A stretch of 28,505 nucleotides of DNA from a virus: the IMG/VR virus record IMGVR_UViG_3300030060_007496, positions 1 to 28,505 of that record; one strand, 5' to 3'. The translations under genes and the position numbers were made by a program. Under the pieces are notes generated by a model. That model searched no databases, was not told where the DNA came from, and saw nothing but the letters and a program-made list of their open reading frames with translations. Shown piece after piece: positions 7,240-27,982 of the stretch; the first letter of the stretch is position 1; each line of letters starts with the position of its first letter.

Positions 7240-9983
7240 TAGTTGAAAGATCCTCCATCGTAAGAAGTTGTTGTACTAACAAGTGAACTGCCGTTATCAA
7301 AATTGCCACCATCGGCAATTATTACTTGATTCATGGTTGACCAACTTGTAACACCGCTGCCATTAGTGGCAAGAAACTGCCCGTTAGTACCTGTATTATT
7401 CGGAAGTGTCAGCGTATAAGTGGCTGCTGCACTATGGGGTGGTCCTTTAATTTTAACACCATGAGTGTTATTTTCACAGTTAAGTAGTAGTGTTCCAGAG
7501 CCCCTTGTTGCATTACCTTTGAATTCAACTACACCACTTCCATTAGGATCAAATTTGATGTTTTGATTCCCTACTGTGATTACACTTCCTGAGCTATCCC
7601 AATTGGGGCCACCTGTACTCAAATAATCTGGAGTTAATGAACCTGCAGGAATTCCACCATTCCAACTTGGGTTCATTTCTACCCATTGACTGGAATCAGT
7701 ATCTTGGTAATAAACATAAGCACGTCCTTCATCACTATCAAACCAAGCATCACCAACATCTGGATTTGAAGGTGGTGACTGACTAATACTTGTACTACTA
7801 CCTGCATCTACATTTGTTAGGAGAGAGCCATCTCCTGCAAATGATGTTGATGTTAATTTACCTGTACTGGGATTGTAAGTAAGCCCAGTATCAGTTTCGG
7901 CTCCTTGATTTCCTGTGGCTCCGTCTACAAAAACCGGGTAAACAGTTTCATCGCTTGTATTATTAGCAGTTACATTAATGTTGGTTGCATTAGTAGCTGT
8001 ACCTGAAAGATTACCAGCAAAATTAAGTGATGTCAGTATTCCTGAGTTAGGATTATATGTAAGAGAGACATCGGATTCAATTCCTTGAGATCCAGTTGTT
8101 CCATCGGCAAATAGTAAATATACAGTTTCATCTGTAGCATTGTTTGCCGTTACATTAACGTTTGTTGAAATATTTGCAGTGCCATTAAGGTTGCCAGCAA
8201 AAGTAGTTGTGGTTAAAGTTGCTAGGCTCGGATTATAGGTTAATGAAGTATCAGCTTCTGGTCCTTGAATTCCACTGCTACCATTCGAAAATAGTACATG
8301 ATATGCATCGTCTGTAGAAGTATTTTGTGTTACGGTTATATTTGTTGAGGTGTTTGCAGTACCTGTAAGATTACCTGCAAAAGAACCGGCAGTAAGAATA
8401 TTTGTGCTTGGATTATAAGTAAGAGATACATCAGATTCTGCTCCCTGACTTCCGCTAGGTCCATCAGCAAACAACAAATATACAGTTTCGTTCGTTGCGT
8501 TGTTTGGCGTAATATTTATATTAGTTGCCAGATCCGCAGTGCCTGAAATGTTTCCTGAGAAAGTTCCTGCAGTCAGAATTCCAGTACTTGGGTTATAAGT
8601 AAGGGATACATCAGATTCAACACCTTGACTTCCTGTAGTTCCGTCAGCGAATAATAAGTAAACAGTTTCATCAGTTGAGTTATTAGCAACAACGTTTACA
8701 TTAGTAGCAATTGAAGCAGTACTAGCAGTACCTGTTAAGTTACCAGTGACATTACCAGTAACATTTCCTGTAAGATCTCCAGTTACATCACCGGCAAACT
8801 GTACAGATGTTAATAACCCAGTACTGGGGTTATAGAATAAACCTGTATCTGTTTCTGCTCCTTGTGCTCCTGTAGCTCCATCTACAAAGACTGGATATAC
8901 GGTTTCATTGTTAGTGTTGTTGCCGGTAACGCTGAATGTAGTTGCAAGGGTTGCAGTGTCTGCATTACCAGTAACGTTACCAGTAATATTTCCAGTGATG
9001 TTTCCTGTGACGTTACCTGTTAAGTTTGCTGATACTGATGTTAATGAAAGATTTCCTGTACTGGGGTTATAGTAAAAACCTGAATCGGTTTCAGCACCTT
9101 GTGAGCCAGTAGCTCCGTCAACAAATACTGGATATACAGTCTCATTTGTTGTGTTATTTGCTGTAACTGTAACTTCAGTTGCTAAATCGGAAGTACCTGT
9201 GACATCTCCAGTGACGTTACCTGTAAGATTACCGGTTACGTTTCCAGTTACATTACCAGTCACATTGCCGGTTAAATTACCAGCAACGGTTGTGGTTGTA
9301 AGTACTCCAGTGCTCGGGTTGTAATTAAGTCCGGTATCTGTTTTAGCACCTTGTGATCCTGTCGCTCCCTGAGCAAATATGGGATATACAGTTGAGTTTG
9401 AACTGTTGTCTGCTGTTACTGTGAATTGAGAAGCAAGTGCTGCAGTTCCGGTTAGGTTGCCAGTTACATCTCCGGTTAAATCTCCAGTTACATCGCCAGT
9501 TATCGTTCCTGTAACAGTCAGGTTGCCGCCAACAGCAGCACTATTGCTGATTGTTGATGTGCTTCCACTGGTATCGAAATCAAGTGCTCTCCAGGAGGTT
9601 GTTCCGCTAGAGGTCTTACGAGCGTAGTTACCGTCTGTAGAAGGCTCTGTGATGCCTCCAATTGTTGAGGTCGTAGCAGCAGACAGGTTGAACGTCAGTG
9701 TTTGATTGGTTATCTGATCTAGCTCAAACGTTCCACCACCTGTAAGTCCTGTACCAGCTGTAAGAGTAATATCTCCTGTACCTACACCTGAACTATTTTT
9801 ACCAGCAATCTTGATAATGCCGTCGTTAGCAGGACCGGCTGTTGCATTATCAACTTTTAGAAATATAGAAGGATCACCATCGTTAAAGTTTACTGCTAAT
9901 TCACCAAACTCCATCTGTGTACTAGATGGAGCTTTTGCATCATTACCATTCAGTACACTACTTCTTTTTAATTGTAATTTCAT
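7239..9983 (-). CDS. Repeat-rich tail fibre (914 aa)
   Basis: The N-terminus (LKRSSVLNGNDAKAPSSTQM, then EFGELAVNFNDGDPSIFLK) is the usual attachment motif of cyanophage tail fibres. From about residue 155 to 710 it alternates ladders of the tetrapeptide TG(N/D)(V/L/I) with eight copies of a roughly 40-residue unit containing ETVYPVFVDGATGSQGAETD and YNPSTG.LT. Residues about 715-760 hold DVGDAWFDSDEGRAYVYY, and about 800-880 carry GSGTLLLNCENNTHGVKIKG, shared with the 239-aa protein. The composition, rich in Thr, Asn and Gly with few charges, suggests an elongated trimeric beta fibre. AGGAAAG precedes the ATG at 9983. Downstream, the 177-aa gene overlaps the stop (TAATG). Confidence 0.88.
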   Translation of the reverse strand: MKLQLKRSSVLNGNDAKAPSSTQMEFGELAVNFNDGDPSIFLKVDNATAGPANDGIIKIAGKNSSGVGTGDITLTAGTGLTGGGTFELDQITNQTLTFNLSAATTSTIGGITEPSTDGNYARKTSSGTTSWRALDFDTSGSTSTISNSAAVGGNLTVTGTITGDVTGDLTGDVTGNLTGTAALASQFTVTADNSSNSTVYPIFAQGATGSQGAKTDTGLNYNPSTGVLTTTTVAGNLTGNVTGNVTGNVTGNLTGNVTGDVTGTSDLATEVTVTANNTTNETVYPVFVDGATGSQGAETDSGFYYNPSTGNLSLTSVSANLTGNVTGNITGNITGNVTGNADTATLATTFSVTGNNTNNETVYPVFVDGATGAQGAETDTGLFYNPSTGLLTSVQFAGDVTGDLTGNVTGNVTGNLTGTASTASIATNVNVVANNSTDETVYLLFADGTTGSQGVESDVSLTYNPSTGILTAGTFSGNISGTADLATNINITPNNATNETVYLLFADGPSGSQGAESDVSLTYNPSTNILTAGSFAGNLTGTANTSTNITVTQNTSTDDAYHVLFSNGSSGIQGPEADTSLTYNPSLATLTTTTFAGNLNGTANISTNVNVTANNATDETVYLLFADGTTGSQGIESDVSLTYNPNSGILTSLNFAGNLSGTATNATNINVTANNTSDETVYPVFVDGATGNQGAETDTGLTYNPSTGKLTSTSFAGDGSLLTNVDAGSSTSISQSPPSNPDVGDAWFDSDEGRAYVYYQDTDSSQWVEMNPSWNGGIPAGSLTPDYLSTGGPNWDSSGSVITVGNQNIKFDPNGSGVVEFKGNATRGSGTLLLNCENNTHGVKIKGPPHSAAATYTLTLPNNTGTNGQFLATNGSGVTSWSTMNQVIIADGGNFDNGSSLVSTTTSYDGGSFN
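7850..9510 (-). repeat. Eight-unit fibre repeat with 12-nt TGNV ladders
   Basis: Within the 914-aa fibre, eight roughly 40-residue units occur between about 7850 and 9430. They are separated by runs of a 12-nt unit encoding TGNV, TGDV or TGNL, especially near 8725-8795, 8965-9030, 9195-9285 and 9445-9510. The units are alike in protein but differ at many third codon positions. Bounds are approximate. Confidence 0.8.
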
Positions 9984-10008
9984 TGCTTACTTTCCTGAGA
10001 AGTACTGT

Positions 10009-10275
10009 TTATCCTGGGTCTATTTTATCAATTTCCTCTTTAAACTCCTTAGCAATCATTTCCTGCAATTCTTTGTTGAACCCCTTTAGTTCAGATTCGA
10101 GTTGTTTTTGTAAAGTAATAGATAGTAAATGTTGGTATTTCATTAGTTGCTCGACTGTAGACTTCAAGCTTGCTTGTAATACTTCAACGTCTTTGCACCC
10201 TTCTACTTCGTCATATATAACCCGCATTTTGAGTTGTTTCTCTAGTGGTATTTCAAAATCCTGAGGTTTAAACAT
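10009..10275 (-). CDS. NblA-like small protein (88 aa)
   Basis: A short, fully helical protein with no hydrophobic segment. Residues 7-53 (FEIPLEKQLKMRVIYDEVEG, then LMKYQHLL) resemble the NblA family layout, in which a 'LSLEQQF.LR' helix is followed by a second helix ending near 'Y.HLL'. NblA is a small adaptor that directs phycobilisomes to Clp protease, and copies are known in freshwater cyanophages such as Ma-LMM01. The C-terminal 30 residues, rich in Lys and Glu, extend beyond the usual length of about 60. The protein lies between virion genes, 25 nt before the 914-aa fibre start and 40 nt after the 580-aa gene. Family membership rests on pattern only; it could instead be an unrelated coiled-coil structural or chaperone protein. 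Confidence 0.5.
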   Translation of the reverse strand: MFKPQDFEIPLEKQLKMRVIYDEVEGCKDVEVLQASLKSTVEQLMKYQHLLSITLQKQLESELKGFNKELQEMIAKEFKEEIDKIDPG

Positions 10276-10315
10276 CTATTAATACTATTATTATCAATGG
10301 TAGCGAATCAATTGA

Positions 10316-12058
10316 TTAGATAAGATCAGCATTAATTGGACCACGTCTGCCGAGCATAATACTTCCAACTTCTGTATCTGATTTCTGTACTAGCTGACCG
10401 ATTGTATATATGAAATCTAGCAGACTGATCTCAGATCGTTCAGTTGATACTGATGTAATTTCCGACACTGCTTTGTCCATTTCTTTTGCTAGCTGTTCTT
10501 CAAATTTAATGCGAGAATCTGCTACTGGATAAGATGATGGTTCAATTACTCTTAACTCATCTAAGAACATTCCAGCAATCGTATGTTTACAGCAGCGTAA
10601 ATCGTACTTATCTCTTGCTGTCTTCCAGCTATTGATAATACCTGACATCTCAAAACTCATAGCTTCTTTATCCTTGTTTTGTCCTGCACTAGGCATTGGA
10701 TACTTAATCTGTCTATTACGTTTTAATCTGGCTTCAATTAATGCTCCATATAATGATTCAGGGGCTGACAACATCCCCTTTGTATAACTTGAGCAATTAC
10801 AAGCAATACTCTCTTCTAGTTTTAGTGTGTCATTTGCTAGCCATGTTTGATCTATCCAAGGATCTACATCAATAACAACTTGATCTTTTACCTCACCTGA
10901 AACAGTGGTTTGCTTTGAAAAACTGTAGTCCGACCATACAAAATATCCATCACTAGCATCTCCGTGTAAGGTCAGCTTTGATTCGTATGGTACGACAGTT
11001 ATTTCAGCATTTAAGCCATTGTTAGATTGTTTTACCGATTTGATATATACAGGCGGTGTTTCGACTGAATACTGTGTAATACGCGGTTCAAGCAACGAAG
11101 CAGAGAAATACTGTCTTCCCCAATATGGTTGGTATGGCTCCTTTTCAACCTTATAAGAATCAACCATCGTAATTGATCCAGCTGTAGTACTAAAGATGAC
11201 TGGAGTTGTTGCTGGCATAAACAGCTCATCATCAGAAGTTAGTTGGCTCACGTCAAATATTTTTATTGACTTATTTGTTTCGCTCATAGTCATTTTGACT
11301 GTTATATCATGAGGCCCATCTGTATATGTCAATCCAGCTGTGTGGAATGATGGCATATCACTTACTACAATCAACTGACCTTCCAAGCTATTTATATTTC
11401 CACCATTGTTAGTGACAAATGCAGAACTATTCAGTCCACTCCATGGAACTGTGTAAATTGATTGGTTGTTTTCACTATGGGATTTAGCAGAGAAGACTAC
11501 AGGCCGGTTGTCTGACCCCATCATTAGTTTCAAACTTGCACTAACTTTTCCGTTAGTAAATCTCTCACCTATTAGCTTTTGAATTAACGGGTCATATGTA
11601 GCAATGCTTGTCCATATTTGTTCCCTTGCTTTCTGCTCTGTGTATATTTGATCATCGTTAAAGACTTGAGTACCTATGGTTCCGAATGTAGGCTGTCCAG
11701 CAATAGTTCTCTTAGCTACATAACGAACACTTGTATCCGAAAGTTTTGAGGGGAAACGTCTTACAGTAAAGCTTGTAACTAACTTATCAACTGTGTTTGC
11801 AAATATAGCAGCTGTTAATCCGGTTGTATAGTCAACATAGTCAGCCTTTGTATAAAGCTCATAGCCTCTTCTCCATCTAGCCCATTTGCTATCAATATTA
11901 TATTTTTCAACAGCAGAACGAGTTATCAAAGTACCAAATTGTCGATCACTTGGATATGATCCAGCAGCTCCAGGTCCAGAACTTACCTTCGTACTTTTAT
12001 TTAGAGGTTTAAATCTAAACGAATCTACCTTTCCAAAACCATTGTTCTTTCTAGGCAT
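10316..12058 (-). CDS. Conserved virion-region protein with SWIM-like CxC...CxH set (580 aa)
   Basis: I do not recognise a named family. The N-terminal 60 residues are basic with Pro/Gly (SGPGAAGSYPSDRQFGTLIT), and the middle part (about 200-400) is beta-rich. The C-terminal part has Cys420-x-Cys422 and, 67 residues later, Cys490-x-His492 next to Cys489, matching the CxC...CxH order of a SWIM zinc finger but with a long insert. SWIM fingers bind DNA or protein. The last 80 residues are helical. Size and position between small head-tail candidates and the fibres suggest a tail, neck or baseplate component. The start ATG has AAGGAGG unusually far upstream (18 nt), inside the preceding gene. Function is unassigned. 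Confidence 0.8.
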   Translation of the reverse strand: MPRKNNGFGKVDSFRFKPLNKSTKVSSGPGAAGSYPSDRQFGTLITRSAVEKYNIDSKWARWRRGYELYTKADYVDYTTGLTAAIFANTVDKLVTSFTVRRFPSKLSDTSVRYVAKRTIAGQPTFGTIGTQVFNDDQIYTEQKAREQIWTSIATYDPLIQKLIGERFTNGKVSASLKLMMGSDNRPVVFSAKSHSENNQSIYTVPWSGLNSSAFVTNNGGNINSLEGQLIVVSDMPSFHTAGLTYTDGPHDITVKMTMSETNKSIKIFDVSQLTSDDELFMPATTPVIFSTTAGSITMVDSYKVEKEPYQPYWGRQYFSASLLEPRITQYSVETPPVYIKSVKQSNNGLNAEITVVPYESKLTLHGDASDGYFVWSDYSFSKQTTVSGEVKDQVVIDVDPWIDQTWLANDTLKLEESIACNCSSYTKGMLSAPESLYGALIEARLKRNRQIKYPMPSAGQNKDKEAMSFEMSGIINSWKTARDKYDLRCCKHTIAGMFLDELRVIEPSSYPVADSRIKFEEQLAKEMDKAVSEITSVSTERSEISLLDFIYTIGQLVQKSDTEVGSIMLGRRGPINADLI

Positions 12059-15522: not shown

Positions 15523-16662
15523 TCAATATACGAATGAGTAACCAACCGTGATGAAGTCCTTATTAAGTACTTCAAATCCGGCGAACAGACTCCAGATCAT
15601 GATGATGAATCGTGAGAAGTCATCATTGTTGTTCAGGAGAATCTGAGCGTTGTTGCCACCGATGCCCACGCCGACAGCCTGAGGGCCGAAGAAGATGAGC
15701 TGAGCTGCGTTATAGGTTGCACTACTACCAGACACGTCAGTGATGGTTGTGGTGTATTCCTGAGCAGGGAGGTTGGTGGACTCGAACCAGCGGACACCCT
15801 CAAAGAGGAATCCGGTTGGCATAACGGGTTGACCAGCAACGAAGCCAGCCTGTCCGTAGGCAGGACCCATGCCTTGGAAGAAGTTTGCGTTAGGACCTGA
15901 GTTCGGCTGCATGGGGTTAATCATGCCTTGGCCGGGATAACGAGCGATTTCGCGGAAGTCGCTGTTCTGACGCAGGTGCATCATTGCAGTGGGGTCCACA
16001 ATGCAGCGGTAGTAACCATCAGCGAAGGTCGGGACGTTGCGCTTACGCATGTCCTTAACAACCTGCAGAAGGTCAGTCTTTACGTCGAACTTGGCGGATT
16101 CACCAGCGGCATAAGTAGCAACAGTTGAACTGGTGCGGTCCTTGCCGAGGGGGAAGTAGTAACCACCTTGCTCTTCTGAAGCTTCGCCATTGGCGTCAGC
16201 TTTCAGCAGTTCGTTGGCGAACACACGGTCGCGCCAGCGGCGATAGTCATCGAGCAGGGTCAGCGAACCGATGCTCTGGTGGAACACGTTCAGGTTGCCG
16301 GTATCAAGCAGCAGACGCTGAGCAGTGATCAGGGTCTCACGAGCGACCTTAAAAGTAGAAGGCTGGGTGGAATCACGCTGGTCAGCAGGACCGGTGTATT
16401 CACGCAGGGTCACAAGGACCTTATCCTTCACGATGTTGCGGGCGGAAGCAGATCCAAGAGTTTGATCAGCAGTCCGCTCACGGGACTCCTTAGTGCCGGG
16501 CTTACCCCAGAAGCGGTAACGATCCAGCTGCACGGTCTGTCCGGGCTGCTTGCTGAAGTCGTGTACTACCACAGGCTCAACTGCCATCTCAATGATGTAG
16601 GCAGGATGAGGACGGTAAAGTTCTGCACCAAGAAGCTTCGGAAAATCATTATCAATCCACAT
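15523..16662 (-). CDS. Major capsid protein, N4-gp56 family-like (379 aa)
   Basis: This forms the head shell. The protein shows the layout of the N4-gp56-like capsid family. An N-terminal strand (VVVHDFSKQPGQTVQLDRYR) leads to RFWGKPGT, then a helical part (KVARETLITAQRLLLDTGNL). At about 215-245 is YYRCIVDPTAMMHLRQNSDF with REIARYPGQG, and about 285-300 GFLFEGVRWFESTNLP; the end is a beta segment with FAGFEVLNKDFITVGYSFVY. The length suits the family, and no N-terminal prodomain is evident. GGAG lies 9 nt before the ATG. GC content is clearly higher than in neighbours (55% in one sampled 60-nt line against 37% in the 580-aa gene), in line with codon selection for high expression. The upstream gap holds two inverted repeats. 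Confidence 0.87.
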   Translation of the reverse strand: MWIDNDFPKLLGAELYRPHPAYIIEMAVEPVVVHDFSKQPGQTVQLDRYRFWGKPGTKESRERTADQTLGSASARNIVKDKVLVTLREYTGPADQRDSTQPSTFKVARETLITAQRLLLDTGNLNVFHQSIGSLTLLDDYRRWRDRVFANELLKADANGEASEEQGGYYFPLGKDRTSSTVATYAAGESAKFDVKTDLLQVVKDMRKRNVPTFADGYYRCIVDPTAMMHLRQNSDFREIARYPGQGMINPMQPNSGPNANFFQGMGPAYGQAGFVAGQPVMPTGFLFEGVRWFESTNLPAQEYTTTITDVSGSSATYNAAQLIFFGPQAVGVGIGGNNAQILLNNNDDFSRFIIMIWSLFAGFEVLNKDFITVGYSFVY

Positions 16663-16770: not shown

Positions 16771-17136
16771 ATGGAATTCATAGATAGCAATGAATGGGTG
16801 CCTGTACATACATTATCAGGATACGAATGCTGTATTGAGTACTATGTCAGCAAGCACGGGTTTGTCAAAAGTACTAAAGGCCAAATAGAAAAAGTACTGA
16901 AGCCACGTATTAATAAGAATGGATATGCTCAGGTAAATTTAACTCAACGCATTGGAAGACGCAAAACAATTACCGCAAATGTACATAAATTAGTTGCATT
17001 AGCTTTTCTAGAATCTCCAGTTGCAATGCCTGGCAGAGGTAAAGGCTGCAGTCGTATTCTTCATATTGATGGCATCAAACATAATAATTCAGTTTCAAAC
17101 TTAAGATGGACTAAAATAAAGGAAACTGTTTCGTGA
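16771..17136 (+). CDS. Free-standing HNH homing endonuclease with NUMOD4-like domain (121 aa)
   Basis: Residues about 8-55 match the NUMOD4-type layout: EWVPVHTLSGYECC with YYVSKHGFVKST and LKPRINKNGYAQVNL. This is followed by an HNH unit with VHKLVALAFL (His72), LHIDGIKHNN (His98, Asn105/Asn106) and NLRWTK. These are the usual catalytic and metal-binding positions, so the enzyme looks intact. Family members cut DNA near their own insertion point to spread. It is oriented against its neighbours and sits immediately upstream of the capsid gene, a common site for such invaders. No intron or intein is seen, so it is free-standing. There is no clear Shine-Dalgarno before the ATG. It overlaps the next gene by four bases (GTGA). 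Confidence 0.88.
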   Translation: MEFIDSNEWVPVHTLSGYECCIEYYVSKHGFVKSTKGQIEKVLKPRINKNGYAQVNLTQRIGRRKTITANVHKLVALAFLESPVAMPGRGKGCSRILHIDGIKHNNSVSNLRWTKIKETVS

Positions 17137-18560: not shown

Positions 18561-19502
18561 CTACAGATACTCTGCGATCTGATTGCTCGAAGCTCTTAAC
18601 GACTTAAGTGCCTTATGCTCAAGCGTCCTTACGCGGTCTCTGCTCATATTTAGTATCTGCCCTATTGCTGTCATAGACATAGGTTCAAGGATGTCATTAC
18701 CTATTCCATATCGCATACTAATAACTGCCGCTTGCATTTCAGGCAGGTCATAGATTAAATCTTTTATATCTTCTTTGATGCACTTTTTTTCAAGTAGCAT
18801 GCTTGGCAACTGGCTCTCGTCTTCAAGCAGATCGATTAATGCTGTATCCCTATTCTCGCCAATCTTTATTTCAAGGGATGTAGGCTGACGTGCTTTACAC
18901 ATTAAATCTTTAATCTCATCCACTGGCAAATTTAAATGATCAGACAGCTGAAATACAGTTGGCATTGAGCCATTGATTTGAGACAGTTCACGCTGAGCTT
19001 TTTTCAGTTTATTGAGATTTTCGGTGATGTGGATGGGCAAACGAATTGATCTACTTTTTTCCGCAATTGCTCTTGTGATCCCCTGGCGTATCCACCAATA
19101 AGCATATGTAGAAAATTTATAGCCACGACCTGGATCAAACTTTTCGACACCTCTAACTAAGCCAATAGTACCTTCCTGAATTATATCCAGTAGCTCCATG
19201 TTACGCTTGGTATATTTCTTTGCGACAGAGACAACAAGACGAAGATTAGCGGTAACCATCTTGTCTTTTGCTTTTTCGCCATCACGTATTTCCTTGCGTA
19301 ATTGCTTTTCTGAGATACCTAAAACTGCTGCCAGTGAATAGTTGTCTTGGATCCCTAAATCAATTTTACTCTGTTTAATATGCATGAGCCTTTGAACTTT
19401 ACGTCCTAAAAGGATCTCTTCGTCATGCTCTAGCAAAGGCACTCTTCCGATATCTCGTAGATATGCACGAACACTATCGCCTGAAACTTTTGATTGTGGC
19501 AT
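18561..19502 (-). CDS. Phage-encoded sigma-70 factor, cyanobacterial group 1/2 type (313 aa)
   Basis: All conserved sigma-70 parts except region 1.1 are present. Region 1.2 is at about 8-40 (DSVRAYLRDIGRVPLL), 2.1-2.2 at 80-122 (ANLRLVVSVAKKY, LDIIQEGTIGLVRGVEKFD) and the -10-binding 2.3-2.4 at 125-157 (GYKFSTYAYWWIRQGITRAI). Region 3 spans about 160-235, and 4.2 lies at 272-302 (MSMTAIGQILNMSRDRVRTL). The DSVRAYLRDIGR start and the length match cyanobacterial SigA/SigB-type factors, so acquisition from a host is likely. It should bind host RNA polymerase core and redirect it to phage promoters. It lies among virion genes, and TATAAATA elements in the window are candidate targets. No Shine-Dalgarno is seen; a small inverted repeat lies upstream at 19528-19546. 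Confidence 0.95.
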   Translation of the reverse strand: MPQSKVSGDSVRAYLRDIGRVPLLEHDEEILLGRKVQRLMHIKQSKIDLGIQDNYSLAAVLGISEKQLRKEIRDGEKAKDKMVTANLRLVVSVAKKYTKRNMELLDIIQEGTIGLVRGVEKFDPGRGYKFSTYAYWWIRQGITRAIAEKSRSIRLPIHITENLNKLKKAQRELSQINGSMPTVFQLSDHLNLPVDEIKDLMCKARQPTSLEIKIGENRDTALIDLLEDESQLPSMLLEKKCIKEDIKDLIYDLPEMQAAVISMRYGIGNDILEPMSMTAIGQILNMSRDRVRTLEHKALKSLRASSNQIAEYL

Positions 19503-20374: not shown

Positions 20375-21379
20375 TCAGATGTCCTGAACAAGCATCTTGC
20401 TAGCAATTGCCTGAGCCGGAGCTTGTGACAGGTACTTCCAAGCATCTTCTGGATTCTGATCCATCATCTGGCTGAAGTTACCCCAGAACTGATTAGCAGG
20501 ATTCCCTGCAGCTTGTCCTGGTGTCGGCATTTCCATCTGAGGCCGTTGGAAGTTGGCAGGTACTTGACGCTGCATTTCCTGTTGATCGATTTCAGCAGCA
20601 AATTCTGCACGTGCATTCTCCTGGAATGCCTGAGCTTCTTCCTGTTCGGTAGGAGTAGGATAAGGGCCATTAGGACCGTAGAAGTCGTTCACATAATCAG
20701 CCAGGATGTCAGGATCCGTAAGCATGACGTTCATTGCATTGCGCTCTTCCTGAGCAGCTCCAAATGCAAGGTTGAACTGAGCAGACTGCTGTTGTCCATT
20801 CTGCACCTGTTCGATCAGGGCATCTTCTACAGCACAGGCGTACTGATTCAGAAGAGCAGGTGCTTCTGCACCGAAGTGCTCAAGTACTTCAAGACTTGCG
20901 TCGCTTATTTGACTTAGATACCCGTCGCTGGCCACCTGTTGGGCCTGGTTGCTGGGTGCCGAATAAGTTTGCGTTGAAACTTGGGGACTGTATGTCTGGG
21001 CTTGCGAATACTGGGCTGCTGGTTGTGCCTGCATTGAAGCCCATGGATCCTGGATACCCGCCTGCGTCGTTGGGGTTATCTGTGATTGATAACTGGGTCC
21101 CAGGGCTTGGGATGGGCTGCTGGTATTCAGGGATGCGCTGAGAGCCTGGAATGCTTCCTGCCATGGATTCCCCTGAGGTGCCGAAACCTGCGGGGCCGCT
21201 GTTGGCTGGTAAGCCAGGGGCTGCTGGGTTTGAGCCGGTGCCTGGCTTGTCGGGGCCGATGCCTGGTAGCTCATACCGGCGTTGATCGCGGGGCTTGCTG
21301 CCACGGCTTGCGCGGGCACGGTCGCCTGCACTGAGGGTGCTGGGGCCTGGCTCGTCACTACTTGGTTTGTACCTTCCAC
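20375..21379 (-). CDS. Candidate scaffold protein, half encoded within portal gene (334 aa)
   Basis: The GTG start at 21379 has the strong Shine-Dalgarno AAGGAG 10 nt upstream, inside the portal coding sequence. Residues 1-163 lie out of frame (+1) within the portal 3' end and are rich in Ala, Gln, Pro and Ser (QAPAPSVQATVPAQAVAASP), probably disordered. Residues about 164-334 are outside the overlap and look like an ordinary helical protein (LEVLEHFGAEAPALLNQYAC, later EEAQAFQENARAEFAAEID). They end GNFSQMMDQNPEDAWKYLSQ plus a short tail. Charge, helicity and position directly after the portal fit a scaffolding or assembly protein, as an inference. The overlap lifts GC content locally (about 67% in two sampled lines). 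A stem-loop follows the stop. Confidence 0.82.
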   Translation of the reverse strand: MEGTNQVVTSQAPAPSVQATVPAQAVAASPAINAGMSYQASAPTSQAPAQTQQPLAYQPTAAPQVSAPQGNPWQEAFQALSASLNTSSPSQALGPSYQSQITPTTQAGIQDPWASMQAQPAAQYSQAQTYSPQVSTQTYSAPSNQAQQVASDGYLSQISDASLEVLEHFGAEAPALLNQYACAVEDALIEQVQNGQQQSAQFNLAFGAAQEERNAMNVMLTDPDILADYVNDFYGPNGPYPTPTEQEEAQAFQENARAEFAAEIDQQEMQRQVPANFQRPQMEMPTPGQAAGNPANQFWGNFSQMMDQNPEDAWKYLSQAPAQAIASKMLVQDI

Positions 21380-23138
21380 TGTAACTTAACTCCTTACGTA
21401 AAAATTCGAGTGATCTATATAAGAACCCGGTAATGTCTAGTTTCGGGTCCGATGCAAGTGGCATGTTGGGCACTTGCGGATGAGGAATCTTATAAAGTGT
21501 TCCTAAAAGATTGATAAATTGGCCTAAAGACTGTTGCGTCTGTTGAACCATCCTGAATGGATAGCCAGTTAGCATTGCAGCTCTCTCTTCTTCCGTTTTA
21601 TTTGGGAAGAGATAAGTGAGAGCTTCTAAAGAACCAACGCCTGCTTCTTGAAGGTTGCGAACAACAATACTATTATTTAGTATGTCTTGTGCGCTTTCTT
21701 CAAATACATCGCCGGTCCATCTCCAACTAACTCTAGTACTACCGTCAGGAACTAATCCTGTAACGCCTGGAGGCATTGCTCCTGACTCAAGTGTAGCACG
21801 CAAGGCTATATCTCTTTGCTCAATAAACTTAGCTTGATCCTTCTCATATTTTGCTCTTGCCTTATCATAAGCAACTACATCATCGTTATAGTCTTCTTCT
21901 AAAGGAATAGTTGGTTTTAATAAACCTATTGACGTAGCAAACGAAGTTAAGAATAAATATTCCTCATTCTTGATCATCATTGAGAATAGCTTGCATAATC
22001 CATATGTAAATAATGCTTTGGCTTTCTTTTCAGCAGTAGCAGCTACCCGACCATACAGTGTCTTGATTTCGTATGCTGTAGCTGCTGTATTGATGTCAAT
22101 ATCATCAACCCCACCCAGTGCCAATCTAATTTCAGATCGATATTGTTTGACATATTTATTTTGATCACCTGAAACTGCATCAGGAGTTAAGTAGTTAATC
22201 CTATCTGTTGGTTCAAGGTTAGCGATAACTCTTGGTACTTTGATTTGACCATCAATTGGTGAAGGTCCGCCAAATGGTGAGCTATTTGCAGTACTCGGCC
22301 TACCTAAGGCTTGGAAGCCAGCTTGGGAACTAATTGTGGGTCTGAATGTGTTCTCGTCACCAGCTTCTACAATGTCGTGTTTTGGACGACTTGAAATTAA
22401 AGTTGGATTACCAAAGAACTTAAGATTTTTCCTTACATTGCGTACTAATTCATCATGGTAAAGAATTTGATTTTGTAGCCACCCAAATTCGCCATTTCCA
22501 ATACCTTGACCAGTGCAATCAAGATTATTGAACACTTCCATTGCTGGAATAAATCCTAAACTATTAGTAACTGTTTCTGTGTTTTGAGAACTGATCATTG
22601 CCCGTGATCCAGCTTTATCTTCAAACTCAATCTTCTCGTTAGATACTGTTTGTTCAATACGGTCTTTAAAAACACTTAGTCTTATGTACTTCTTTTTCCC
22701 ACCTCTTTCTTCATTAAGTGGATAAGCACCAAGCATCTCATCGTCTTTAACGTTAAAACTATAACTGAGTACAACGTTATCGATCTCATTTTTTGTATTT
22801 CTATAGCACCTATAATTCTCTTTAGTAAAGTATAGAATTTGATATGAATCGCCTGCAGGTCTGAAATAGAATAATCCTTGTCCGTCACATAGAAAATAGT
22901 CAACAATACTGTCTAACTTCAGTTCCATCATATTTTCTTCTACAATCTTGGCGATAAAATCACGCCGTGCTGCATAAGAATCTTGATCGCAATAAAATTC
23001 TATACCTCTTCTCAACATGAAAGTTCTCATCTGTGCAAGATGAGAAGAAACAATCATTGTGTCTACATTTAAATCACCTCTACGCTGTTTTGCAGCTTCA
23101 ATGATTAAATCGAATTGGCTATTTGTTTGACTATCCAC
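20889..23138 (-). CDS. Portal protein with long disordered C-terminal tail (749 aa)
   Basis: The portal forms the ring through which DNA enters the head. Its position after the large terminase, size and sequence support the call: GLFYFRPAGDSYQILYFTKE, later GEFGWLQNQILYHDELVRNV and NLKFFGNPTLISS, then a helical stem region (YKKEIRLALGG-like, here YRSEIRLALGG). Residues about 587-749 are a Gly/Pro/Ser-rich tail (PGTGSNPAAPGLPANSGPAG) ending in a basic patch (RRVSKSNKRRKS); this tail is exactly the part overlapped by the 334-aa gene. The start at 23138 is a GTG with only a weak ribosome-binding site; an in-frame stop lies 9 nt upstream, so the true start is this GTG or a later codon. Confidence 0.9.
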   Translation of the reverse strand: MDSQTNSQFDLIIEAAKQRRGDLNVDTMIVSSHLAQMRTFMLRRGIEFYCDQDSYAARRDFIAKIVEENMMELKLDSIVDYFLCDGQGLFYFRPAGDSYQILYFTKENYRCYRNTKNEIDNVVLSYSFNVKDDEMLGAYPLNEERGGKKKYIRLSVFKDRIEQTVSNEKIEFEDKAGSRAMISSQNTETVTNSLGFIPAMEVFNNLDCTGQGIGNGEFGWLQNQILYHDELVRNVRKNLKFFGNPTLISSRPKHDIVEAGDENTFRPTISSQAGFQALGRPSTANSSPFGGPSPIDGQIKVPRVIANLEPTDRINYLTPDAVSGDQNKYVKQYRSEIRLALGGVDDIDINTAATAYEIKTLYGRVAATAEKKAKALFTYGLCKLFSMMIKNEEYLFLTSFATSIGLLKPTIPLEEDYNDDVVAYDKARAKYEKDQAKFIEQRDIALRATLESGAMPPGVTGLVPDGSTRVSWRWTGDVFEESAQDILNNSIVVRNLQEAGVGSLEALTYLFPNKTEEERAAMLTGYPFRMVQQTQQSLGQFINLLGTLYKIPHPQVPNMPLASDPKLDITGFLYRSLEFLRKELSYSGRYKPSSDEPGPSTLSAGDRARASRGSKPRDQRRYELPGIGPDKPGTGSNPAAPGLPANSGPAGFGTSGESMAGSIPGSQRIPEYQQPIPSPGTQLSITDNPNDAGGYPGSMGFNAGTTSSPVFASPDIQSPSFNANLFGTQQPGPTGGQRRVSKSNKRRKS

Positions 23139-23172: not shown

Positions 23173-24294
23173 CTAAGCAAACTCGTTAAGTAAATCCATT
23201 TTGTCACGTAATCCTTCAGGCTCACCTGGCATTTCAAATCCGCCACGGTACCTATAATTTTTAGGACTTCCATAGTTGGCAGCATCAAATTGTGTTGCTA
23301 AATCAAAGAAGTTCAATGGGGCTCTATCTGCTGCTTCACGTAATCCTTGATAATCAATGGGATTATATGCATTATCCGTAAACATATTAGTAACTTTGAT
23401 TCCGTAGTTCTCGCCTGAATACTCATCCATATTATCTTCCATATTGTCTATATATTGCTGACCTAAACCTAAACCACTTTCATATCCTGTGCCAGATCCT
23501 CCACCCATCGGATTTATATACGTTCTTGATTTATCTATATTTGCACCTACATCTCCATAAGCATTACCTCCAATGACAATTTCTGTATCTCTAGCTTCCT
23601 GATTTCTTCCTACAGCTACTCCACCCGGTGCAGCGATAGCAGAGCCATCATCTAATTTATTGTTATTTATTTGACTTTGGACACCGTCTCCTATGTTTGC
23701 CATTCCATCATCACCTTGTACCACATCTATATTATTGACTTCATCAATGCCTGGCAAAGTTCCTGGTGGTCCAGGATTAGTGTTTTCTTTCTCTGCTTCC
23801 ATAATTGCAGTTTTCCACCTGTCTAAAAGATTTTCAGCATTGCTAGACATCTCAGCATCTGAACTCTCAGCAAAAGCAATGATTTTTTCTTTATCGTGGC
23901 CACCAATATTTTTTAAACCCTGAAGATCGCCTGTAGTTAATAACTCCCTTCCCCGTTGAGAACCTTTTCCATATTCAGCACCTGTATATCTATCGATATT
24001 TTTAAAAGGATTATTTTCATCTGTTATATCCCTTAAACGACCCTCATCATAATACTGACGACCTTCATCTTTTGCATTGCCCATAAATGATATTTCATTT
24101 CTTTCATCAAACCTACGCCGTACTTCTTTGGGTAAGTCTTTCATTCGATCTACACCTTTTCTGTCCATCAATTTCTTTCCTGCCATCCTCCTTTCTTTCC
24201 TATCCCTTTGGCCAAGGAACATATCCCTTGTATTGTTTTCCTTATAGCTTTTACTTTGCTGTTTATAATTTTTACCTTCCTGATATCTAGCCAT
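23173..24294 (-). CDS. Hypothetical basic/acidic protein between terminase and portal (373 aa)
   Basis: No family is recognised. Residues about 1-65 are strongly basic (QGKNY-like start, then RDRKERRMAGKKLMDRKG and KEVRRRFDERNE), suggesting nucleic-acid contact. The middle (about 180-285) is Gly/Asn/Asp-rich and probably disordered (AIAAPGGVAVGRNQEARD, MGGGSGTGYESGLGLGQQYI). The C-terminus contains APLNFFDLATQFDAANYG. It follows the large terminase after 7 nt with no own ribosome-binding site in the gap and precedes the portal by 34 nt, so it belongs to the packaging/portal transcript. A head-assembly or packaging accessory role is inferred from the position. Confidence 0.8.
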   Translation of the reverse strand: MARYQEGKNYKQQSKSYKENNTRDMFLGQRDRKERRMAGKKLMDRKGVDRMKDLPKEVRRRFDERNEISFMGNAKDEGRQYYDEGRLRDITDENNPFKNIDRYTGAEYGKGSQRGRELLTTGDLQGLKNIGGHDKEKIIAFAESSDAEMSSNAENLLDRWKTAIMEAEKENTNPGPPGTLPGIDEVNNIDVVQGDDGMANIGDGVQSQINNNKLDDGSAIAAPGGVAVGRNQEARDTEIVIGGNAYGDVGANIDKSRTYINPMGGGSGTGYESGLGLGQQYIDNMEDNMDEYSGENYGIKVTNMFTDNAYNPIDYQGLREAADRAPLNFFDLATQFDAANYGSPKNYRYRGGFEMPGEPEGLRDKMDLLNEFA

Positions 24295-24301
24295 GGTAAA
24301 T

Positions 24302-25840
24302 CTATAAATCTAAACTATCCTTATTGTACTCTAACTGTAAATGCCCTCTTCTTAAAAGTCCTCCAATAGTTAATACCATTGAATCAACAGCATCATCATG
24401 TGCAGAATGTCCAAAGTTAAGAAGCTCTTCTTCTAGTACAGTCCACTTACGGTATTTATTCCATATAATCTTCTTCCTTTCGAATAGTCCAAGCACGCCA
24501 CGCAGTCTCGCTAATTTATCACCCTTGAATCCTTTAACAGGTGAACATGTCAGGTTATATAAAGCACGCTCGTCAAACATAATTCGTTTAAAGTCTCCTT
24601 CAAATGATGTCTGGTATGAGATTGCTTCAGGCCATATAATGCATGGCGACATTGTTGGGAAATATTGTTCGTCCTCATTTTCAAGTAATATGTTCCAATC
24701 AGCAAGCATCGAACATAAGCAGTCCATTTTTTCAATATTGCCCATTGCTCTTACTCTGCGTTGATCTATTAAATAAATCTTTCCCTCCTTGATCCCGCCT
24801 AAGGTAAATACAGTCCAATCGTTCTTCTCACTCAATCCTGAACTAAGATCTATTCCCACACCAAGGCAGTCATAATCATCTGGTACCTCTGCTCTAACGA
24901 TTAAATCAGGTGAGATTCCAACTTCTGATGACTGAACAGCTGTATTGAGATACTGATATGCAAAGGCCACCCGATCTTCTGTTTTCCGTTCGTTTAGATA
25001 TTTCATTGACCAGAACTCTGGCCAGTATGATCTTTGCCTTCCGTCAGCGTCTGTTATGACTGCTTTTTGGATAATCTGTTTCCAGTTATTCTTTGGTATA
25101 AAAAGAGAGGCGTGGACATCGTCGTAGTGAAAGCGCGTTCCCAGACAGATTGCCCGTGCACCTTGGAACATCGTAGGAGCGATAACGTTACTCCATGTCT
25201 GTTCCATTTCACGGCGAATATCAGGATTGTTGATTGATGCAGCGGATTTAATAGGGTCATCAATAAGCACGAGCTGGGAGCGCTTCGAGGTAATAGCTCC
25301 TTTGAGACCACCACACGCAATGGTGAAAGCTTCTTCACCCGCTGTATCAATACCCGCAAATTCATAGTCGATACTCCAGTACTCATCTGATCGTTTAATT
25401 TTGGAAAGCCGTACCATTGGAAATATTTCCCGATACTTGGCACTTGTAAGAATCCCTTTGATGGTTGCAGACTTTGCTCTACTGATATCGACCATGTAAG
25501 CGATGTACAGAATACGCAGCATCTGCTTGGCTGCTGTATGCCTGCCGATCATCCAAGCAGCGAATAAACCCAGTACTGTGCTCTTTGCTGACCCTCGTGG
25601 GGCAAGTATGTCTGTGTTAGGCCCACCAATCCCAAGTAAGCATTCACTATCTACTCCAGTGCAAAGCTCTTTATGCCACTCGTGCATATGCTTTGCTGGA
25701 GGTTTACCTAATAGAGTACAAAAATCTTGAAAGTTATCTCTTGCTCTAAGGATAGATTCATCAGGAGGTTTGACAGTTACCTTTGTAGCTGTCATCAATG
25801 CTGATCTTCTGTACGCTAAAGCGATACTCGGAACTGCCAT
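24302..25840 (-). CDS. terL: Large terminase subunit (512 aa)
   Basis: The ATP-driven motor that packages and cuts phage DNA. The ATPase part has a Walker A variant LAPRGSAKST (79-88), Walker B LVLIDD (190-195) and coupling motif CLGTRFH (232-238). The nuclease part has GIDLSSG (Asp331), WPEAIS (Glu405) and a final acidic pair in HDDAVDS (Asp482, Asp483). All the expected acidic residues are present, so the enzyme looks active. Length fits the family. The ATG at 25840 lacks a clear Shine-Dalgarno. It follows the 178-aa candidate small terminase by 28 nt. Confidence 0.96.
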   Translation of the reverse strand: MAVPSIALAYRRSALMTATKVTVKPPDESILRARDNFQDFCTLLGKPPAKHMHEWHKELCTGVDSECLLGIGGPNTDILAPRGSAKSTVLGLFAAWMIGRHTAAKQMLRILYIAYMVDISRAKSATIKGILTSAKYREIFPMVRLSKIKRSDEYWSIDYEFAGIDTAGEEAFTIACGGLKGAITSKRSQLVLIDDPIKSAASINNPDIRREMEQTWSNVIAPTMFQGARAICLGTRFHYDDVHASLFIPKNNWKQIIQKAVITDADGRQRSYWPEFWSMKYLNERKTEDRVAFAYQYLNTAVQSSEVGISPDLIVRAEVPDDYDCLGVGIDLSSGLSEKNDWTVFTLGGIKEGKIYLIDQRRVRAMGNIEKMDCLCSMLADWNILLENEDEQYFPTMSPCIIWPEAISYQTSFEGDFKRIMFDERALYNLTCSPVKGFKGDKLARLRGVLGLFERKKIIWNKYRKWTVLEEELLNFGHSAHDDAVDSMVLTIGGLLRRGHLQLEYNKDSLDL

Positions 25841-25868: not shown

Positions 25869-26405
25869 TTAAGAGTTCCCAATTTCACTATAAATTTTAG
25901 CCCATACAGCATTCATTGCATTATCAATAGGTTCAGCAAACTGTGGATCATCTTTGAAGATAGCAGTCATCTCTCTCATAACTCTGTCAGCACCTGCAAG
26001 AATTAAACCTCGTTTATCTGTGGTTTTATTCATACGTTCACTTGCTTCAATATGAGAGCGTAGTTCTTTCTCTAGTGCTGCTAAACGTCCAGCACCTAAA
26101 TCACCTTTTACTTCTCCAGCAGTAATTGCCATACGTAAGTCTTGTACATCTGCATGAAGTGCTGCAATTTCACTATTCAAGATTTCACGTCGGTTGAGCT
26201 TTTTGAACTTCATTTTCACCCAACGTGATAAGTCGTTAAATGTTCCGCCATATCCAAGGATTCCTGAGTACACCCAAATCTCAATGATCGAAGGAGTTAT
26301 CTCAGCAAACTCTCTGAAGTCTTCTGCATCTGCTGCAGGTAATGTATCTAACCATTGATCTACTAGAGTTAGATAAAGTTTTTCTGATTTAGTAGATGTT
26401 GTCAT
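25869..26405 (-). CDS. Candidate small terminase subunit (178 aa)
   Basis: It lies directly upstream of the large terminase, where the small, DNA-recognising subunit normally sits. The N-terminal part (about 28-70) has a possible helix-turn-helix pattern (FAEITPSIIEIWVYSGILGY then GTFNDLSRWVKMKF), followed by a long helical, coiled-coil-like stretch (LNSEIAALHADVQDLRMAIT, RLAALEKELRSHIEASERMN) that would form the oligomerisation ring. Length suits the family. No motif is diagnostic, so the call rests on order and architecture. Its start overlaps the stop of the 525-aa gene as TAATG, implying coupling. Confidence 0.6.
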   Translation of the reverse strand: MTTSTKSEKLYLTLVDQWLDTLPAADAEDFREFAEITPSIIEIWVYSGILGYGGTFNDLSRWVKMKFKKLNRREILNSEIAALHADVQDLRMAITAGEVKGDLGAGRLAALEKELRSHIEASERMNKTTDKRGLILAGADRVMREMTAIFKDDPQFAEPIDNAMNAVWAKIYSEIGNS

Positions 26406-27982
26406 TAGAATGCGCTTGCTGCCTTAGCCATCATTCTAGATTTATCAGCGCGGGTTCTTGCAGCCAATCTATTTGCAAAATCAGCTTCTTTCATCCTTAA
26501 GTCACTAGCAGTAGTCATCTTCCTTTCTTCAAGGCCTAAACCATAAGAAGCTTCATCCTTTCTAAGTCCACTGCCAAAAGCTGCGGTATCCTTACCTAAT
26601 GCTTGTGAAAAAGCAGCTGAATCTTTACCTAATCCTTGTTGGAAACTGGCCTCATCTTTTTTGATTTTACTTCCAAATGCAGCTGTATCTTTGCCTAGTG
26701 CCTGTGCAAATGCAGATTCATCTTTTCTGATTCCACTTCCAAATGCAGCTGTGTCTTTTGCTAACCGTTGTCCATAAGCTGCTTCATCTTTCCGGATTTG
26801 ACTACCGTATCCAGCTGTATCTTTCCCCAATGCTTGAGCAAAGGCAGCTTCGTCTTTACGCCCCGCTCTTTCAAAAGCACTTGAATCTTTGGATAACCCT
26901 TGCTCGTATGCGGCTTCATCTTTTCTAATACCACTACCAAATGCCTGTGCTCTCTCACCTAATGCTTGTTGAAAGGTAGCTGAGTCCTTAGCTAGTCCCT
27001 GCTGAAAAGCTGCGGTATCTTTGCCCAATGATTGTTGGAAAGCAGCACTGTCCTTGGCTAACCCTTGTTGAAAGGCTAAATTACCCTGACCTATTTGTTG
27101 TTGAAATGTTGCTGTATCCTTACCTAATGTTTGTTGGAATTGCGCTTTATCTTTCTCAAGTTGAGATTGATATCCAGCTGAATCCTTAGCAAGTGCCTGA
27201 GTAAATGCTGCACTATCTTTTTGAAGTGCTTGTGCAAAATTCTGTTCGTCTTTTTTAATACCGCTCATATAAGCAGTCTCATCCTTCTTGATGCCACTCA
27301 TATAAGAGGCGCTACCTTTCTGCAACTGCGCTGCTAATACCGCTTGCTGTTGCTTCTCAATGTTTGATTGTGCTTGAGTAAGCCGATTTTGTTCTCCAGT
27401 TTCTTTCGTAGCTAATCTATTTTCAAACCCAGCAACTGCTGTACTTTTTCTATCCTGATCTCCACGCACCTGCATGAGCGCAGTTTGTATGTCCTTATCA
27501 AATCCCATCTTGCCAACTTGACGGTTGTACTCATCTTGAGCAAACCGACTCTGCAGACTAAACTCTGCTCCCATTACATTTAATTTTTTAGCCTCTTCAA
27601 CATCCATCAGAGCTGCCTGGTTCGACAGTTCAAGGGCAGCAGCCTGATTCATCATCATTGACTGAAGACCAGCATTTGTTGCTGCTAACCCTTTGGCAAT
27701 ATTTGAATCTTGATATCCCTGAAGGGTATTCATCATATATGTTCCCTTCATCATCTTGCCCCAATCGCTTGTGGGCTTCCATGTATTGAACGCTGTATTC
27801 ATATCAGCGAAACCAAGCGCTCCTTGCGCCATCAAAGCAGGATCGACCACTCCTACTTTTTTACTGTTGGGATCATTATCTACGCCCCTGCCTTTATTTG
27901 CGGCGTCTACTCTTGCCTGACTACTCCCGCCACGTGGTGTCTGAATAACTTTTCCTTGAGCATCTCTATCTTGACTAGCCAT
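26405..27982 (-). CDS. Hendecad-repeat helical protein (525 aa)
   Basis: Residues 222-507 are 26 tandem 11-residue units; the first 24 are clear (to 485), with consensus K-D-x-A-A-F-x-Q-x-L-G and recurring forms such as KDTAAFGSGIR and KDEAAFAQALG. Eleven-residue periods make straight, right-handed or amphipathic helices, as in some coiled coils and LEA or apolipoprotein-type proteins. Residues 1-221 hold a Gly/Asp-rich start and helical Gln/Met-rich sequence (NTWKPTSDWGKMMKGTYMMN). The C-terminus is basic. It precedes the candidate small terminase with a TAATG overlap. Possible roles are an internal virion or ejection protein, tail-length ruler or membrane-binding helix; none is proven. A promoter-like TATAAT lies about 33 nt upstream. 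No clear Shine-Dalgarno. Confidence 0.85.
   Translation of the reverse strand: MASQDRDAQGKVIQTPRGGSSQARVDAANKGRGVDNDPNSKKVGVVDPALMAQGALGFADMNTAFNTWKPTSDWGKMMKGTYMMNTLQGYQDSNIAKGLAATNAGLQSMMMNQAAALELSNQAALMDVEEAKKLNVMGAEFSLQSRFAQDEYNRQVGKMGFDKDIQTALMQVRGDQDRKSTAVAGFENRLATKETGEQNRLTQAQSNIEKQQQAVLAAQLQKGSASYMSGIKKDETAYMSGIKKDEQNFAQALQKDSAAFTQALAKDSAGYQSQLEKDKAQFQQTLGKDTATFQQQIGQGNLAFQQGLAKDSAAFQQSLGKDTAAFQQGLAKDSATFQQALGERAQAFGSGIRKDEAAYEQGLSKDSSAFERAGRKDEAAFAQALGKDTAGYGSQIRKDEAAYGQRLAKDTAAFGSGIRKDESAFAQALGKDTAAFGSKIKKDEASFQQGLGKDSAAFSQALGKDTAAFGSGLRKDEASYGLGLEERKMTTASDLRMKEADFANRLAARTRADKSRMMAKAASAF
26462..27319 (-). repeat. 33-nt period tandem repeat (11-residue units)
   Basis: 26 consecutive units encode the hendecads of the 525-aa protein. 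Neighbouring units often have the same residues but different third codon bases, for instance in the codons for KDTAAF, so the array is old and kept by selection on the protein and not by recent slippage. Confidence 0.9.

Follow-up and report, generated by a model that had tools for sequence, protein, structure and literature searches.

The virus contig analysed here (28,505 bases, referred to throughout as the window) carries two genes, one for a portal protein and one for a probable scaffolding protein, that are read from the same strand in different frames over 491 nt. Judged by the substitutions that separate related viruses, both frames of this overlap are under purifying selection, and the same-strand, out-of-frame dual coding is real. 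The arrangement belongs to a widespread and little-studied lineage of cyanobacterial viruses, the S-EIV1 lineage. Taken together, the observations probably reflect a true overlap in which one stretch of DNA serves two proteins: the portal, whose disordered and basic tail it encodes, and a likely scaffold, whose disordered and acidic N-terminal half is read from it and which is initiated from an internal Shine-Dalgarno (SD) site of its own.

The portal protein gene (20889..23138, minus strand) is an open reading frame of 749 aa with a GTG start, and its product divides into a body (residues 1-586) and a disordered tail (residues ~587-749). The second gene (20375..21379, minus strand; 334 aa) also opens with GTG (21377..21379, minus strand) and has positions 20889..21379 in common with the first. 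Across these 491 nt (163 codons, minus strand) portal codon position 1 coincides with scaffold position 3, a +1 relation, and the shared stretch constitutes the N-terminal half of the second gene. Its SD motif, AAGGAG, lies at 21390..21395 (minus strand), inside portal codons K583-E584 and 10 nt ahead of the GTG, and an in-frame TAA stands two codons upstream of that start (21386-21388, minus strand). An earlier note, made from the letters of this stretch, had described the two frames, the AAGGAG inside the portal gene, the overprinting of half of the second gene, and the composition of the two products; all of this was recovered, with the overprinted share computed as 49%, the portal share being a Gly/Pro/Ser tail that is unstructured in the predicted model, and the share of the second protein being rich in Ala and Gln.

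The gene order on this one strand is terminase large subunit, portal, 334-aa gene, major capsid protein. One module holds them all, with the terL gene (24302..25840, minus strand; phrog_38, E 2e-70) upstream of the overlapping pair and the major capsid gene (15523..16662, minus strand; phrog_1357 major head protein, E 1e-19) downstream of it. Several neighbours deserve mention in their own right. An HNH endonuclease gene (16771-17136, plus strand; phrog_59, E 2e-20) adjoins the capsid gene in the opposite direction, and a sigma-70-type factor gene with regions 1.2, 2, 3 and 4 (18561-19502) lies inside the virion module; the relatives carry this factor gene as well. Between terminase and portal there is a gene for a 373-aa polar protein (23173-24294), and the open reading frame at this position varies widely in length among relatives, from ~295 to 670 codons. 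Further along, a 525-aa protein (26405-27982) consists mostly of KDxAxFQQxLG-type repeats and is without clear family.

The proposal that the 749-aa protein is a portal is borne out by structural matches, structural realignment and gene order. Although the query model was poor (mean pLDDT 49), the top 30 Foldseek matches were all solved phage portals (best E 1.4e-4), and realignment with VIA-align gave Z scores of up to 7.4, with portals making up 49 of 50 among the matches listed and only residues 16-211 well tested. At the sequence level, the protein matches phrog_20475 in the head and packaging category (E 1e-174), a family whose label is virion structural protein only; SPP1_portal was matched by one of 28 members (E 0.003), and a sequence search against solved structures gave no meaningful match. 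The gene sits between the large terminase and capsid genes, all on the same strand, and by modelled fold and gene order its product is a portal.

The second protein is probably a capsid scaffold, to judge from its position, its acidity and its predicted helices. It has a pI of 4.05, a net charge of -21 over the whole chain, and 17% Ala and 16% Gln. In an AlphaFold2 model (mean pLDDT 60), residues 1-68 and 87-151 are disordered and helices occupy residues 160-333, with pLDDT values of 80-93 for much of the C-terminal part; the predicted helices of residues 294-333 (20381..20500, minus strand) are a candidate coat-binding end. A structure search with this weak model returned no fold match, no scaffold family appeared among Pfam or PHROG matches, and hhalign comparisons with T7 gp9 and P-SSP7 gp9 were not significant; membership of the gp9 family was rejected on the latter two grounds. 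The overlap could also be real and the 334-aa protein some other head protein, such as an internal virion or core protein or a decoration protein. This reading, which we regard as unlikely, draws on the lack of a sequence or fold match to any scaffold and on the presence of two more small genes between the second gene and the capsid gene. Against it stand the location directly behind the portal gene and before the capsid gene, like that of gene 9 in T7 and P-SSP7, and an acidic, Ala/Gln-rich chain with a predicted extended helix and C-terminal helices. We therefore refer to the product as the probable scaffold.

Profile scans of viral contigs revealed more than 580 stretches encoding relatives, and the first rounds of retrieval yielded 160 loci. 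The main sample comprised 102 distinct relatives in which both genes are complete; these loci were picked for overlaps of 400-600 nt, so that open frames within them are no test by themselves. Among the loci fetched in the first rounds, no intact locus fell outside this range, and one apparent exception (L073) is explained by truncation. The overlap measures 443-566 nt in 102 of 102 relatives, always in the identical relative frame, and 11 contigs from genome assemblies agree with this arrangement; loci fetched later reach 590 nt, many of them being the same contigs fetched again. The arrangement is kept down to ~43% portal identity, and the second protein is homologous over its full length. 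No relative with separate portal and second genes was found in profile scans of viral contigs and of genome contigs or in a lenient tblastn search of phages, a search that could not reach portals outside the lineage by sequence, nor was either frame missing from any relative examined. The overlap is presumably old, and since the frames could be pulled apart only by duplicating the region, it would not easily be lost.

The start signal of the second gene is conserved together with the frames. Two forms occur among the relatives: a GTG start (70 loci) and an ATG start one codon position further upstream (32 loci). In the GTG form a near-invariant AAGGAGTTAAGTTACA precedes the start, and AAGGAG is present in 68 of the 70 loci; the SD and its GTG or neighbouring ATG are maintained as a pair across relatives. 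In the window, the predicted SD pairing of the second gene (-7.7 kcal/mol) is the strongest of 18 genes computed, as against +0.3 kcal/mol for the portal gene, which has no recognisable SD; among control positions taken from portal bodies, no more than 4% reach -7. ATG-type relatives have a weaker SD (-4.8 on average), and a very strong internal site is not universal among them. As a guide to which frame is the older, codon usage did not separate the two: its correlation with that of the genome is near zero for both frames among GTG-type relatives and of similar size for the two among ATG-type ones.

These signals bear on whether the second product might arise, in part or entirely, from a programmed +1 ribosomal frameshift out of the portal frame, which would produce a portal-scaffold fusion. 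The relation between the frames is indeed +1 and both are open for ~490 nt, so that any internal shift site would yield a fusion. However, the SD and start are conserved at a fixed distance and synonymous suppression is centred on them, which points to independent initiation; in most loci an in-frame stop lies just upstream of the start, and +1 shifts are uncommon. A frameshifted product is accordingly very improbable, and initiation at the internal site remains the preferred reading.

The dual-coding test used 31 independent sister pairs of relatives, with each substitution in the overlap classed by its effect in both frames. Within the overlap, dN/dS was 0.38 (0.32-0.44) in the portal frame and 0.29 (0.25-0.32) in the second frame. 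As controls, the calculation was repeated with a frame that is not used: +1 in the portal body gave 0.82 (0.77-0.88), and +2 in that part of the second gene which lies outside the overlap gave 1.53. The two subclades, GTG and ATG, show the same overlap values. Divergence at third positions of the portal falls from 0.37 in the body to 0.127 in the overlap, and that of the scaffold from 0.35 in the second gene alone to 0.151 in the overlap.

Along the portal gene, synonymous change remains at ~0.9-1.3 of expectation up to residue 572, then falls to 0.79 in the interval at 572 and 0.31 at 585 and stays at 0.13-0.73 from there to the end; the drop thus starts at the SD and start of the second gene and persists to the portal stop. 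Codons 581-586, which contain the SD site, show 0.26-0.44 of the expected synonymous change. The most constrained dual-coding stretch (21080..21172, minus strand) encodes scaffold residues 70-100 (GNPWQEAFQALSASLNTSSPSQ...) and portal residues ~656-687, with portal-frame synonymous divergence at 0.13-0.40 of expectation across it; the GNPWQEAFQALSASLNTSSPSQ stretch also holds a short predicted helix (residues 72-85, AlphaFold2 model), and the lowest values cover GNPWQEAFQALSAS, a scaffold motif whose conservation extends to S-EIV1. Separately, portal residues 455-572 (~21428-21779) have a synonymous divergence of 0.9-1.1 compared with ~1.2 in the rest of the body, which could reflect stronger conservation or a weak DNA or RNA signal.

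It is barely conceivable that only one of the frames is functional and the other stands open by chance, through GC-rich, stop-poor codons. When the portal residues were held fixed and their codons redrawn, the +1 frame stayed open in 8-29% of draws, and a single sequence is thus weak evidence on its own; but the second frame evolves at 0.29 against its control of 0.82 and the portal frame at 0.38 against 1.53, and the third frame is open in none of the 102 loci. Base composition was not accepted as evidence that both frames are constrained. The earlier note had put local GC content at about 67% in sampled lines, as against about 45% in the portal body, and had read the rise as expected of two constrained frames; the values are in fact 60% overall in the overlap (peaking at 64.5% over 200 nt) and 38% in the portal body. 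This argument was dropped because the composition follows from Ala, Pro, Gly and Arg codons, and the non-overlapping rest of the second gene is GC-rich too (50%).

Finally, an indel introduced by sequencing or assembly, splitting one long gene, can be discounted almost entirely: frames are broken in three contigs of a single data set, yet the identical arrangement recurs in the isolate S-EIV1 and in contigs of independent origin, more than 100 in number. Those three contigs (L057, L085 and L086; data set 3300050343) have several frame breaks in both portal and second gene, and their portals are interrupted repeatedly, the pattern expected of indel errors.

On the favoured reading of a true overlap, ribosomes would start the second protein at its own AAGGAG...GTG, independently of portal translation, and both products would be made at full length, as the selection on both frames and the conserved SD and start suggest. 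Because the second start precedes the portal stop by ~490 nt, termination is unlikely to couple the translation of the two genes. A strong internal site combined with a weak portal site may yield the second protein in excess, and the strong SD of the second gene, set against the unrecognisable one of the portal gene, fits a need for scaffold in many copies for every dozen subunits of the portal. The overlap might also, as the earlier note suggested, set in what ratio or order portal and scaffold are made. Since disordered tails make low structural demands, the pairing of two of them may render dual coding cheaper and allow the overlap to persist.

The portal's basic C-terminus may also contact the acidic scaffold. 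The last 20 portal residues (...RRVSKSNKRRKS; 20892..20951, minus strand), which overlap scaffold ...SDGYLSQISDASLE, carry a mean net charge of +6.75 (range 0 to +10) across the 102 relatives. That the overlapping segments are themselves binding partners, the basic C-terminus docking on the acidic scaffold and so bringing the portal into the procapsid, is a speculative extension that we consider unlikely. If true, one stretch of DNA would encode both sides of an assembly interface, with words such as CGAC read as Arg in the one frame and as Asp in the second. In P22, the scaffold drives incorporation of the portal ring (PMC13386823). As a precedent for a basic tail that binds scaffold, the KRRR motif, also basic, in the portal of P22 was considered and dropped, since according to the same paper this motif does not serve as the site of scaffold binding (PMC13386823).

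Synechococcus phage S-EIV1 (KJ410740) is the only cultured relative found, with a portal 43% identical and a second protein 32% identical to those of the window. Its gene order from portal through second gene to major capsid matches that of the window, and its overlap of 554 nt is in the same frame, with AAAAGGAG as SD and an ATG start. In the GenBank record, annotation of the second gene is confined to its final 134 aa, past the portal stop (AHV82225); the overlap is unannotated, and the gene nevertheless starts inside the portal gene. At the capsid locus of the same genome (9215-10441), the major-capsid homologue is one open reading frame (9284-10441), and the record instead holds a CDS on the minus strand (9215-9976) and a short one on the plus strand (9971-10441), likely an annotation error. 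Gene finders usually refuse long overlaps and more than 580 stretches encode relatives, so a half-missing second gene, as in the S-EIV1 record, may be a widespread error. A single dual-coding region, available in more than 100 diverged versions, placed within a virion module that is essential and flanked by clear controls, offers good material for testing how far disordered tails tolerate overprinting and how phages set the ratio of portal to scaffold.

Overlapping genes are known as a kind, but we found no description of an out-of-frame portal/scaffold overlap in the open-licence literature, and a conserved one of ~500 nt was found nowhere else there. A survey of reference genomes of viruses put 84% of annotated overlaps below 50 nt, and the longest overlap shared between phage families, at a required 95% identity, was 185 nt (PMC7017920). 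The overlap length is unusual, as had been claimed, both against this survey and against individual phages. In T7 and P-SSP7, as here, the scaffold gene (gene 9) lies directly behind the portal gene (gene 8) and before the capsid gene (gene 10); however, genes 8 and 9 are separated by 99 nt in T7 and overlap by 1 nt in P-SSP7. Lambda B (portal) and C (protease) overlap by only 20 nt. Lambda Nu3 resembles the second gene of the window in being a scaffold gene that starts inside another head gene, C, but it shares the frame and stop of C, whereas the second gene of the window has a different frame and a different stop, which rules out a nested scaffold of this type. In the T7 capsid frameshift (gp10A/gp10B), too, a single piece of DNA is read in two frames to give two virion products; there, one protein is extended, whereas the overlap in the window has its own start and SD and encodes two different proteins. 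In kind, the arrangement resembles long, out-of-frame, same-strand overprinted virus genes in general, such as A/B and D/E of phiX174, from which the present case differs in being a terminal overlap of ~500 nt between two virion genes of a tailed dsDNA phage, maintained over deep divergence.
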